A stretch of DNA of 60,705 bases from Gemmataceae bacterium (GTDB lineage: Bacteria; Planctomycetota; Planctomycetia; Gemmatales; Gemmataceae), in the NCBI GenBank assembly GCA_025055795.1, contig JANWVV010000025.1:1-60705 (forward strand), written 5' to 3'. The notes below the pieces were generated by a model. That model saw only the letters and a program-made list of their open reading frames with translations. It was not told the DNA's origin and made no database searches. The position numbers were made by a program, and so were the translations under genes. The stretch's first letter is position 1. Every line of letters starts with the position of its first letter. Positions 23,194 through 27,494 of this stretch are shown here, piece by piece.

Positions 23194-24153
23194 ATGCTGG
23201 AAAATTTCGACCACTACGGATACATAGGCATATTCGTGGCTTTAATCGCTGCCGGTTTCGGTTTCCCCATCCCGGAGGAGCTACCGGTTATCACCGCCGG
23301 TATTCTGGTCGGCCATGATGATACCAACCTGCGTTGGTACATCATGTTACCGGTGGTGATTCTAGGAGTGGTCACAGCCGATGGCCTGCTCTACGCGGCT
23401 GGACGGCTGTGGGGCCGGCGACTCCTGGAGATCGGCTGGGTCAAGCGGCATCTGCTCCCACCGGAAAAACGCGAACAGATCGAACGCAACTTTGCCGCCC
23501 GTGGCATCTTGGTTTTGCTGGGAGCCCGCTTGCTGCCGGGGATCCGCACTCCGATTTTCCTCATGGCCGGCGTGTTACGCGTGCCGCTGGTTCGCTTCCT
23601 GATCGCCGATGGCATCTACGCTATTCCCCTGGTTAATCTGCTATTCTGGTTGTCCTATGTTCTGACCGATCAGGTTCTGGTCGTCTTCCGGCAGATCCAG
23701 AAGGTTCAGGAGGAATATCGACCGTTGGTGATCGTAGCCGTGTTGTCGGCCTTGGCGGGCGTTTTGATCCACAAGTATTTGCTGAGCCGCAAGGTGGTGG
23801 TGGGCGATCCAGCGGAGGTTCCCCCTCTCATTGCTCGTCCGGCAGAAGTGATTACCCACGCTCTGGAGACGGCGGTGGAGAAGGTCACGCGACGCAGTCA
23901 TCACGAGCCCCACGTCGAACCGTTGCCTAGGCTGGTTTCCGCCACGGAAACAGACAAAGAGATAGCCGTGGCGGAGCAGTCGTCGCAACACTTGGGCAGC
24001 GAGAAGGCCGATTTTCAGACAGATGGCGTCGTAGTGCCGGTCATCCGTCCGGATAGTGACCAGGACCGTTGTCCGGCCTCGGAGTCAACGCTTAGTCCCT
24101 CTGCGGAAACAGGGAACGGAGGAGCCGCTCGGACAGGTCGTACTGGGGAGTAA
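23194..24153 (+). CDS. DedA-family membrane protein with a long polar tail
   Basis: An inner-membrane protein of the DedA/SNARE-associated family, implicated in lipid-carrier flipping and membrane homeostasis. The family blocks are visible: GFGFPIPEELP near residue 21, a membrane segment with ADGLLYAAGRLWG, the conserved ARLLPGIRTPIFLMAG loop, and two further spans near 135-210. Past residue ~215 comes a polar tail of about 100 residues, rich in Glu, Thr and Ser and absent from typical members. The last 62 bases overlap the 3' end of the NadD-NadK gene on the opposite strand. ATG 23194 has GAGG seven bases upstream. It probably forms a unit with the pseudouridine synthase gene. Confidence 0.88.
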   Translation: MLENFDHYGYIGIFVALIAAGFGFPIPEELPVITAGILVGHDDTNLRWYIMLPVVILGVVTADGLLYAAGRLWGRRLLEIGWVKRHLLPPEKREQIERNFAARGILVLLGARLLPGIRTPIFLMAGVLRVPLVRFLIADGIYAIPLVNLLFWLSYVLTDQVLVVFRQIQKVQEEYRPLVIVAVLSALAGVLIHKYLLSRKVVVGDPAEVPPLIARPAEVITHALETAVEKVTRRSHHEPHVEPLPRLVSATETDKEIAVAEQSSQHLGSEKADFQTDGVVVPVIRPDSDQDRCPASESTLSPSAETGNGGAARTGRTGE

Positions 24154-25507
24154 AGGCCAGTTCTGCAGCGGCGATGCTACTGAGCCGCACCTCCATGGTG
24201 CGTATCGGTCCCAGGGGATGACCGTCCAGAAAGCCGCGTACCGGGCGTTTGCCTCGCTCGTCCAAATTACAGATGCGCACCCGTGCAGTTTCGGGCAACG
24301 TGACAGGTTTCCAGAAGTAGGGTTGGAAGACATTAGAGCCGGCCAGGGTCAGAACCGGGGCCGACAACGGCACGGGGGTGGCCCCCATGGCCCGCGCATA
24401 ACCGGACGACCCAGCCGGCGTAGCCACCAGCAGGCCATCCCCCACAATCCGCGGCACCTGCAGGCGACCATCCACTTCCAGACTCAACCAAGCCGCCTGG
24501 CCGCTGTCCCGTTCCACCCAAGCGTCGCTATATGCCAGACCTAGCCGCACCTGGCCGTCGGGTGTGGTACATTCCACTCGCAACATCGGCAGGCGATACA
24601 CAACCAGCTCTAATCCTACCAGTTGGTCAGGCAGCTCCTCGTTGAGCAGAAAGCCGACCGTACCGGCATTCAAGCCGATAAAAGGGAGGCGTTCCCGCCA
24701 GTAACGGCGGATGGCCGCTAACATGGTGCCATCACCCCCCAGTACCATAATCGCAGTGGCTGGTTCGGCCACCCAGCGTTGGAACCGCTCGGCCAACTGA
24801 ACCGCCTGTGGGTTGCTCTCATCCCAGACCACACGCAAGCGGACTGGATCCAACTGAATGCGTGTTTCCCGCGGTGTAGGGATACCCGTAAACAGGCGGT
24901 AACGCCGGATGTAAGCATAGACTGCTTCGGGAACATACCCCCGAATGTCCTTGCCTTCGAACACCCAGCGACGGATTTCGGCCGTGGGAATATGGTCCTC
25001 GACGGTCAGGGTCAGCGCCTGGGGCGGTAGATCGGCTGGCGACAATGGTGCCAGACGGGAGCCGACAATTACAAACCGCCCTTGTTGCCACCAGGCTTCG
25101 CCCTGTTGCCAGTGACTCTGGATCAGCGACGTGCCCTGCTGGCCACCCCGGACGAAGTCGGCCGCCACTACCTGCCACACCTCCCCACGGGCGGCGTAGG
25201 TAGTTGCCAACAGGTGATCAGGCAGATGTTTGCCCTCGTCCAGCTCAGCTAGATCCACCACTACCCCTGTCAGATCCCGGAACGCCAGGTCCGCCATGAC
25301 TGCCCGGTGCAGCGGTTCGGCATGCTCTCCATCCGGCGTGGCCTGACGCGGTACCACTGGCCGGACAATCACTTCGTCGAAACCGGCTTCCCGCACGCGA
25401 CGGACCACTTCGCGATGATAATTGGTCGGCGGATCAAAGCTGCCTGTGAACACGGCCACCCGCCGCCCGACCACTGATCCGTCCAGCGGCGGCAAAAAAC
25501 TGCTCAT
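24092..25507 (-). CDS. Putative bifunctional NadD-NadK fusion (NaMN adenylyltransferase / NAD kinase)
   Basis: A 471-residue protein that appears to join two NAD(P) enzymes. Residues 17-205 are a nucleotidyltransferase with the opening AVFTGSFDPPTNYH (the HxGH site reads TNYH) and the NadD-type closing motif IPTAEIRRWVFEGKDIRGYVP. Residues 220-465 are an NAD kinase with GGDGT (257-261), NAGTVGFLLNE (280-290), GDGLLVATPAGSSGY (356-370) and a late FLDGH. Where NAD kinases usually have Asn-Glu after the beta hairpin, this one has Ser-Asp (327-328). ATG 25507 has AGGTGG at a five-base spacing. The frame is open without interruption, so it is a true fusion, not two genes. It follows NagB-LmbE by 43 bases and overlaps DedA convergently. 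PPAT-like activity of the first domain is the main alternative. Confidence 0.82.
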   Translation of the reverse strand: MSSFLPPLDGSVVGRRVAVFTGSFDPPTNYHREVVRRVREAGFDEVIVRPVVPRQATPDGEHAEPLHRAVMADLAFRDLTGVVVDLAELDEGKHLPDHLLATTYAARGEVWQVVAADFVRGGQQGTSLIQSHWQQGEAWWQQGRFVIVGSRLAPLSPADLPPQALTLTVEDHIPTAEIRRWVFEGKDIRGYVPEAVYAYIRRYRLFTGIPTPRETRIQLDPVRLRVVWDESNPQAVQLAERFQRWVAEPATAIMVLGGDGTMLAAIRRYWRERLPFIGLNAGTVGFLLNEELPDQLVGLELVVYRLPMLRVECTTPDGQVRLGLAYSDAWVERDSGQAAWLSLEVDGRLQVPRIVGDGLLVATPAGSSGYARAMGATPVPLSAPVLTLAGSNVFQPYFWKPVTLPETARVRICNLDERGKRPVRGFLDGHPLGPIRTMEVRLSSIAAAELAFTPQYDLSERLLRSLFPQRD

Positions 25508-25550
25508 GCTTCCACCTCGCGCCGGAAACGATCTCGGCAAGGACCCGACG

Positions 25551-27494
25551 CTACTGGTCCCTCCAGCGGACGAAGGCCTCGATGGCAAAGTATTCGGGCA
25601 GTCCCAGGGCGTCGTAGATACGGGCCGTGTGGCGGTTGCGTTCCTCGGCTCGTTGCCAGAACTCGCGGCGGTCCGAGCCACCGGGGAACATGGCGCGGTC
25701 CTTCTGGGATTGATGGCGGAAGATGGCCTGTTTTTTGCGCTCCAGGATGTCGGGACTGAGGGGAACGGCCATTTCGATTTCGTGCGGTTCCCATTCTTCC
25801 CAAGCCCCTTTGTAAAGCCACACTTCTGGCAAAGGTTGTCCGGTTTGTTCCCGCAGTCGGCGTAAGGCAGCGAAGATGGCCTCGGCACACAGGCGGTGGG
25901 TGCCGTGAGGATCGGATAACTCGCCAGCCATGTAAACCTGACGGGGCTGAAGCCGTTGCAGCAAGGTGAGCAGATCCTCGATGTCCTGCGGGTGGATGGG
26001 ATCTTTGGCAATGCGACCGGTGCGGTAGAAGCGTAAGTTGAGGAAACTGAGCCGTTCCGGGGGAATTCCACAGACCCGCGCAGCCGCCCGGGCTTCGGTC
26101 GCCCGTATCAACGCCTTGATAGTCAGCACGTCCTCGTTATCCGGCTGACCGGGCTTTTTACCATCCAAAAACTGGTAGACGCGTTGCTTGAGGTCGGCGA
26201 AGCGGGCCTGTTCAGCGGCCGAGCCGAACTGCCCGAGAAATTCGTGCACGAAGTCGACAAAGCGGCGGGCATCATGGTCATATACGGCGATGTTGCCGCT
26301 GGTCATGTAAGCGACATGCACGGCGTGTCCCTGCTCGACCAGACGAATAAGGGTGCCGCCCATGGAAATAACGTCGTCGTCCGGATGTGGCGAGAAGACC
26401 AGGATTGTCTGGGCACCATCCTGACCGGCCGGGTAGGGGGTGATGGTTCGCATCCGATCGTGGAATACCTCTTCGCCGATTTTTTCGGCCGGTCCTTTTT
26501 CCCGCAACAACTCGTACAAATGATGCTGACGGAAGTCTTCGTCGTCCAGTTGCAGGAGTCCCTTTTTAACCGTCAGGGCCAGATGCACCACGGCCTTGCG
26601 GACCAGTTCCGGCGTCCAATCGCAGGGCCCGACTTCCCAAGGGCGTTTGATCGCGGTCAGTTCGGCTGCGGCTGCCGGATCCAGGACAACGGTGGCGTCC
26701 GGATGCTCCTGCAAGAAGCTGGCGGAAACGGCCTCGGTCGGCGGTTGCTCCACCGCTTTGTAAACGATGGCCGCCTTGTGTTCGCCAAAGGCCATCAGAA
26801 AGATGCGGCGTGCCTCCAGAATGGTGGCTACCCCCATGGTGATCGCATGGTGAGGCACGTTTTCTTCGCCGAAAAAGCCCGGGGCCGCATCACGACGCGT
26901 GATACTGTCCAAGGTCACCAGCCGGGTCCGGCTATTCCGCGGACTGCCCGGTTCATTGAAACCGATGTGCCCCGTCCGACCGATCCCCAAGATCTGGATA
27001 TCGATCCCCCCTGCGGCCTTGATCTTGCGTTCGTACTCCGCACAAAACGCGTCAATTTCGTCCTTGGCCAGTGTCCCATCCGGAATGTGGATGTTTTCCC
27101 AAGCAATGTTGACATGCTGGAAAAAGGTCTCGTGCATCCATCGGAAATACGAATGGGGGTCCTCCTTGGGCATGGGATAATATTCGTCCAGATTGAAGGT
27201 GATTACACGGGAAAAATCCAGCCCCTCTTCCTGATGAAGGCGGATCAATTCGCGGTACAATCCCACCGGCGTGCTACCGGTGGCCAGACCTAGCACTGTC
27301 GGTTTGCCCGCGGCGTTACGGGCCCGGATTAGTTTGTCAATTTCCCGAGCCACGTAGCGGGCCGCTGCTGCCGCTGTTGGAAACAACACGGTGGGAACCC
27401 GCGTGTGCGGAAGTGCATGGAGGCCAGCCATAACTTCGAGTCCTGCACGCTTGGAGGAGGTCGAATCCCTACGCAGGGTCTGCTTATTAGTCAT
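25551..27494 (-). CDS. nagB: NagB-LmbE fusion: glucosamine-6-phosphate deaminase with PIG-L deacetylase domain
   Basis: A two-domain protein of 647 residues. Residues about 30-300 form a glucosamine-6-phosphate deaminase with LATGSTP, the catalytic NLDEYY (101-106) and GIGRTGHIGFNEPG (170-183, H176). Residues about 360-640 form a PIG-L/LmbE zinc deacetylase domain with HPDDD (370-374) and the later DPHGTH metal site. This fusion is known from Bacteroidetes and planctomycetes and suggests deacetylation and deamination of an amino sugar to fructose-6-phosphate and ammonia. The start is uncertain: ATG 27494 is used; ATG 27431 (MAGLHALPH) would remove a 21-residue polar leader. It is first in a pair with the NadD-NadK gene. 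Confidence 0.9.
   Translation of the reverse strand: MTNKQTLRRDSTSSKRAGLEVMAGLHALPHTRVPTVLFPTAAAAARYVAREIDKLIRARNAAGKPTVLGLATGSTPVGLYRELIRLHQEEGLDFSRVITFNLDEYYPMPKEDPHSYFRWMHETFFQHVNIAWENIHIPDGTLAKDEIDAFCAEYERKIKAAGGIDIQILGIGRTGHIGFNEPGSPRNSRTRLVTLDSITRRDAAPGFFGEENVPHHAITMGVATILEARRIFLMAFGEHKAAIVYKAVEQPPTEAVSASFLQEHPDATVVLDPAAAAELTAIKRPWEVGPCDWTPELVRKAVVHLALTVKKGLLQLDDEDFRQHHLYELLREKGPAEKIGEEVFHDRMRTITPYPAGQDGAQTILVFSPHPDDDVISMGGTLIRLVEQGHAVHVAYMTSGNIAVYDHDARRFVDFVHEFLGQFGSAAEQARFADLKQRVYQFLDGKKPGQPDNEDVLTIKALIRATEARAAARVCGIPPERLSFLNLRFYRTGRIAKDPIHPQDIEDLLTLLQRLQPRQVYMAGELSDPHGTHRLCAEAIFAALRRLREQTGQPLPEVWLYKGAWEEWEPHEIEMAVPLSPDILERKKQAIFRHQSQKDRAMFPGGSDRREFWQRAEERNRHTARIYDALGLPEYFAIEAFVRWRDQ

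Follow-up and report, generated by a model that had tools for sequence, protein, structure and literature searches.

A NadD-like domain fused to an NAD kinase in Gemmataceae and other planctomycetes

A gene in a stretch of 60,705 nucleotides, here called the window (contig JANWVV010000025.1 of a Gemmataceae bacterium, assembly GCA_025055795.1), encodes one polypeptide in which an N-terminal domain resembling the adenylyltransferase NadD is joined to a nicotinamide adenine dinucleotide (NAD) kinase. The protein likely functions as an NAD kinase, no other having been detected in its genome, and its NadD-fold domain likely still acts as a second pyridine-nucleotide adenylyltransferase beside a separate NadD. 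This reading as a whole is tentative, with a probability of roughly 0.48. Kinase activity is the part we infer most firmly, because the cell needs NAD phosphate (NADP) and the kinase motifs are conserved.

The same architecture is found in many other planctomycetes. Both domains are covered in 231 of 253 collected proteins (window protein included; the other 22 were left out of the residue counts), and the fusion occurs in 33 of the 102 genomes returned for the order Gemmatales (full length in 32, interrupted by a contig end in the other). A chance join, or a frameshift or sequencing error uniting two genes, is excluded by this recurrence. The conserved frame also speaks against a lineage-specific accident without function, as does the similar conservation of the two halves, with mean pairwise identities of 50% (NadD half) and 59% (kinase half) over 820 pairs from 41 proteins (nine rows were set aside, comprising fragmentary sequences, kinases without the fusion, the canonical NadD and a second copy of the window protein). 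No support was found for an artefact or accident beyond the absence of the fusion from most genera of the order (it occurs in 8 of 44), and such an origin is extremely improbable.

Surveys of the phylum drew 392 genomes with at most four candidates scored per genome, and counts outside the order are therefore lower bounds. In this sample at least three genomes have the full fusion, namely the window's genome, G182 and G272 (families f63, f52), and at least 33 further ones match the kinase part only. Protein searches name Gemmata, Fimbriiglobus ruber, Limnoglobus roseus, Zavarzinella formosa and a Pirellulales metagenome bin as holders. A search with 11 distant fusions returned 1582 proteins at E <=1e-3, of which 120 were listed and many others may match by one domain only; a scan of contigs with the window protein as single query gave two loci only.

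The assignment of the two halves, as made in the original prediction, holds by profile searches and by matches of the predicted structure to known structures. The kinase half passes the Pfam gathering cut-off for PF01513 NAD_kinase (6.3e-9, 36.7 bits against 25.5) and has the predicted NAD kinase fold. The N-terminal half has the predicted NadD/NMNAT fold, with NadD/NMNAT structures ranking above phosphopantetheine adenylyltransferase; profiles place it with NadD as well, but at scores under the cut-offs. Among NCBIfam kinase equivalogs every cut-off shown is missed, the best being PRK04761 (145.5 against 211), and the NAD kinase/NADP phosphatase model PRK14076 reaches 31.8 bits against 493, with its match at residues 252-375, inside the kinase half. 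The CobT domain DBI_PRT (PF02277) is absent from the Pfam matches of the window protein.

Conserved residues argue for catalysis in the N-terminal domain. Counts were made for near relatives (n = 111, window protein included) and far relatives (n = 120), and two selected alignments hold 72 (A1) and 51 (A2, whose first row is the window's NadD half) of the 121 available sequences. S/T23, D25, H31, W133 and R179 are kept in 111 of 111 near relatives, where position 117 is D in 56, E in 54 and a gap in one. All 231 proteins have W133, and R179 is also kept in all near and far relatives. In alignments to solved NadD, H31 corresponds to His-19 and D25 to Asp-13 of the Escherichia coli enzyme, and position 117 to Asp-109 by way of Bacillus subtilis, the direct E. 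coli alignment being shifted there. Alanine at His-19 leaves 0.62% of the activity of E. coli NadD and alanine at Asp-109 leaves 0.038%, and Arg-46 is an important residue (PMC1249556). The loop holding Arg-46 gives no confident alignment to the window protein. Because the window protein retains every mappable residue, its NadD-like domain is expected to be able to catalyse.

The domain might instead transfer an adenylyl or other nucleotidyl group to a different small molecule, with the fusion serving a side pathway. The loop near position 117 does have an insertion compared with canonical NadD (from the P0001 sequence and that of the source genome's own NadD), and roughly half of the near relatives have E in place of D117. 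Such a substrate is nevertheless improbable, given the invariant W133, the ranking of the structural matches, and the NadD and CobT modules that are fused to the same core in some relatives and also handle nicotinate mononucleotide (NaMN), a compound on which CobT is known to act.

The genomic setting is that of a single detected NAD kinase accompanied by another NadD. In a profile search of the source genome (4.41 Mb, 267 contigs, 94% complete) PF01513 matched nothing but the fusion, and a canonical NadD (173 bits, over the cut-off) sits on a different contig, so the fused half is, by sequence, a divergent relative and not the cell's NadD. NAD_synthase matches (best 52.2 bits) and a CinA domain are also present; CobT gave no match in this genome and was rejected as a component of the window's own system. 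Across the order, 32 of the 33 fused genomes have no further PF01513 match, and the remaining one (G094) has a second, canonical kinase.

In the proposed mechanism, adenosine triphosphate would bind to the NadD-like domain at FDPP..H31 and R179, with a pyridine mononucleotide lodged close to W133, and the domain would make a dinucleotide; the tethered kinase would then phosphorylate NAD at GGDG. Adenylyl transfer is the favoured prediction for the window's clade, and nicotinamide mononucleotide (NMN) is the predicted likelier substrate, because only NMN yields NAD directly, the tethered kinase's own substrate, while NaMN gives nicotinate adenine dinucleotide (NaAD), which must leave for NadE. 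In the established pathway, NaAD is amidated by NadE before the NAD kinase step. The original prediction had NaMN channelled straight to NADP, which is impossible on the fusion alone; a direct route needs NMN. The same prediction also named NAADP production and co-regulation of NAD and NADP synthesis, which may occur. If the NadD-like domain is active, two of the last steps toward NADP would reside on one molecule, with a putative hand-over between the two sites. A bolder scheme appears doubtful. In it, a single protein would carry NMN through NAD to NADP; an adenylyltransferase and an NAD kinase would have been joined once in planctomycetes, become the sole NAD kinase of whole genera and afterwards gained additional modules, either CobT or MazG-like plus NadD, giving pyridine-nucleotide proteins of three and four domains.

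Several findings pull against a catalytic role or against the NMN route, and most of them suit a different explanation, in which the NadD-like domain is non-catalytic and, by binding a ligand as a sensor or by serving as a scaffold, gates or stabilises the kinase to which it is fused, a role that CobT-like modules may have in some relatives. The N-terminal half fails the PF01467 cut-off (0.0029, 18.2 bits against 21) and lies far below that of TIGR00482 NadD (5.5e-10 over residues 19-205, 39.6 bits against 112.45), for which reason it is named NadD-like here and not filed as NadD. It departs from a strict T/HxGH motif, since TNYH keeps the first Thr and the last His and has Tyr for Gly at the third position. 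A canonical NadD over the cut-off is retained in 31 of the 33 fused genomes (G035 and G089 being without one in this search). Catalytic positions are eroded in part of the far relatives, with H31 kept in 112 of 120 (lost in 8), D25 in 77 (41 N, 2 S) and D/E117 in 85 (lost in 35), and some distant members are probably unable to catalyse. CinA (PF02464), the family of NMN deamidase, occurs in 95 of the 102 order genomes and in 32 of the 33 fused ones, and its retention in the latter suggests that NMN probably has another exit. The sensor or scaffold is a substantial possibility, though one that sits uneasily with the near clade, where the complete retention of S/T23, D25, H31 and R179 is seemingly more than binding requires.

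The idea that NMN salvage by the fusion replaces NMN deamidase was rejected, as the same CinA counts show no trade-off.

The history of the kinase adds to the case for a non-catalytic partner, as the NadD-like domain is absent in genus g21. A tree of 85 kinase domains (lacking L108, one of 31 intended outgroup loci) places the unfused kinases of g21 together with the fused proteins in one group, with modest support (ultrafast bootstrap, UFBoot, 75). The nearest unfused neighbour of this group is a kinase of G159, and the wider group is separate from the canonical kinases of the order (UFBoot 100). The three g21 kinases are nested within the fusion group, the enclosing nodes having values, from the smallest outwards, of 100, 93, 79, 94, 89 and 99. 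Two g21 genomes have complete unfused frames of 257 and 260 residues, and in the remaining two the frame is overlong in one and broken by a contig end in the other. One fusion event with later loss of the NadD-like domain in g21 is the simplest reading of the tree. By the same phylogeny the domain is dispensable in that genus, since a kinase lineage nested inside the fusion group lacks it there.

The NadD-like domain is seldom seen alone. A profile built from 26 halves found 12 proteins among 7996 candidates scored; six were inspected and proved to be fragmentary, to have a broken frame or to represent a separate NadD protein, and the other six are short, partial or weak by their table entries. 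In P0123, on a contig of 360,571 bases, the likeness to the domain ends part-way.

Larger fusions provide a precedent for non-catalytic passengers. Among 121 proteins (the 120 listed and the window protein), the NadD-like domain is preceded by more than 150 residues in 51; 48 of these extensions are CobT-like and three (P0115, P0117, P0118) have a NadD instead. Chains of CobT-like, NadD-like and NAD kinase domains include P0012, P0057, P0084, P0094 and others, as well as loci L079 and L082. Compared with standalone CobT of four kindred genomes, all 48 CobT-like domains are without the GNT/GNS of the GEMGIGNTT loop and without the GxGxG-type segment that follows, which suggests that they are probably not active CobT; they look like pseudoenzymes. 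In 11 of the 33 fused order genomes one open frame encodes both the CobT-like domain and the fusion, and no full-length standalone CobT match was found in those 11, one of which (G017) has a second, partial match on another contig. With 165.3 bits, the extra NadD of P0117 exceeds the cut-off. In P0115 and P0117 the extra NadD follows a MazG-like segment whose score is below the cut-off; none is reported for P0118, where the likeness is by eye only.

Some further arrangements were noticed. P0130 has an N-terminal segment that looks similar to that of P0115, P0117 and P0118, and a NadD, without a kinase. In two genomes, G009 (L078) and G027 (L084), the CobT-like part is encoded in one frame and the NadD-like-NadK part in a different one next to it, through a frameshift or a real split. 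Three fusions of genus g37 (L086, L087 and L088; G087, G089 and G088) carry a short N-terminal segment that by eye resembles the tail of the MazG-like part and may be what is left of a larger fusion. In place of the fusion, three further genomes of g37 have an ordinary NAD kinase.

In the kinase half, GGDG is kept throughout the relatives (Table 1), and the NE/D motif varies. Two sources describe NE/D as common to NAD kinases (PMC8553519; PMC11233901). In the window protein the acidic residue is retained and the Asn is replaced by Ser. At the Asn position, near relatives have Gly (43), Ala (32), Ser (25), Val (7), Asn (2), Cys (1) or Leu (1), and far relatives have Asn in 118 of 120. Because such proteins are the only NAD kinases detected in their genomes, the Asn is probably dispensable in them. 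The window protein and its near relatives are candidate NAD kinases without the NE/D Asn, of a kind that the fusion family supplies naturally.

The fusion shares with PpnK/NadK (PF01513) the predicted fold, GGDG and the position of only NAD kinase detected in its genome, and is set apart by its N-terminal domain, the Ser at NE/D and scores under the NCBIfam cut-offs shown. With NadD (TIGR00482) and eukaryotic NMNAT it has in common the predicted fold, D25, H31, D117, W133 and R179; it differs in its score below the NadD cut-off, in T-N-Y-H for T/HxGH, in the attached kinase and in the canonical NadD alongside. The kinase of NadR acts on a nucleoside and has a different fold, whereas that of the fusion is an NAD kinase. 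NadR is nonetheless similar in that a pyridine-nucleotide adenylyltransferase and a kinase share one chain, being NMN adenylyltransferase plus ribosylnicotinamide kinase (PMC1249556). A known bifunctional NAD kinase fusion is the MJ0917-type NAD kinase/NADP phosphatase of methanogens (PRK14076), whose partner is an inositol-monophosphatase-like phosphatase, in contrast to the adenylyltransferase-like partner found here (PMC8553519).

No paper on an adenylyltransferase-NAD kinase fusion was found in the parts of the open-access literature available (a scope that leaves preprints and most subscription journals outside). In one protein source the automatically assigned names already mention both activities, and annotation pipelines therefore already see the architecture. 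Few partners are known to be built into NAD kinase, the enzyme that makes NADP, and in several genera of planctomycetes it is joined to a domain acting at the level of precursors. With natural variants running from intact through eroded to lost, and with CobT-like and full NadD relatives, it becomes testable whether such tethering serves flux, sensing or nothing.

The gene itself is a single stop-free frame with a good ribosome binding site, in line with the original prediction, which gave no strand; direct reading puts it on the minus strand (Table 1). GGDGT at residues 257-261, GDGLLVATPAGSSGY at 356-370 and IPTAEIRR from 173 all stand where they had been placed. IPTAEIR is the counterpart of the C-terminal ISSTxIR-type motif. 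A start further upstream, giving a frame of 659 residues, was rejected, as this frame would run into the NagB/PIG-L gene and the alignments of most relatives begin only at about residue 11-16.

Table 1. Features of the fusion gene, in coordinates of the window
Feature	Position	Strand	Basis or remark
Whole gene, 471 codons and stop	24092..25507	-	ATG at 25507
Shine-Dalgarno-like GAGGTGG, ending 4 bases before ATG	25512..25518	-	sequence read directly
NadD-like domain, residues about 15-207	24887..25465	-	
FDPPTNYH, residues 24-31, counterpart of the T/HxGH nucleotide-binding motif	25415..25438	-	sequence and alignment
IPTAEIR, residues 173-179, with invariant R179	24971..24991	-	sequence and alignment of relatives
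Linker, residues about 208-221, R213 invariant in 72 relatives	24845..24886	-	alignment
NAD kinase domain, residues about 222-469	24101..24844	-	
GGDGT, residues 257-261	24725..24739	-	GGDG in 231/231 proteins
S327-D328, NE/D position, Ser in place of Asn	24524..24529	-	alignment of relatives

An operon logic for the fusion was considered and found unsupported, as no widely conserved gene neighbours were seen: in 39 loci, no neighbouring frame shown was matched in more than five other genomes, except for the fusion's own CobT-like parts (11). In the window, the gene upstream lies 43 bases away (25551-27494, minus strand) and combines a glucosamine-6-phosphate isomerase domain with a PIG-L deacetylase domain. 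On the other side, the 3' end of the fusion gene overlaps by 62 bases (24092-24153) that of a plus-strand gene for a VTT-domain membrane protein (23194-24153).
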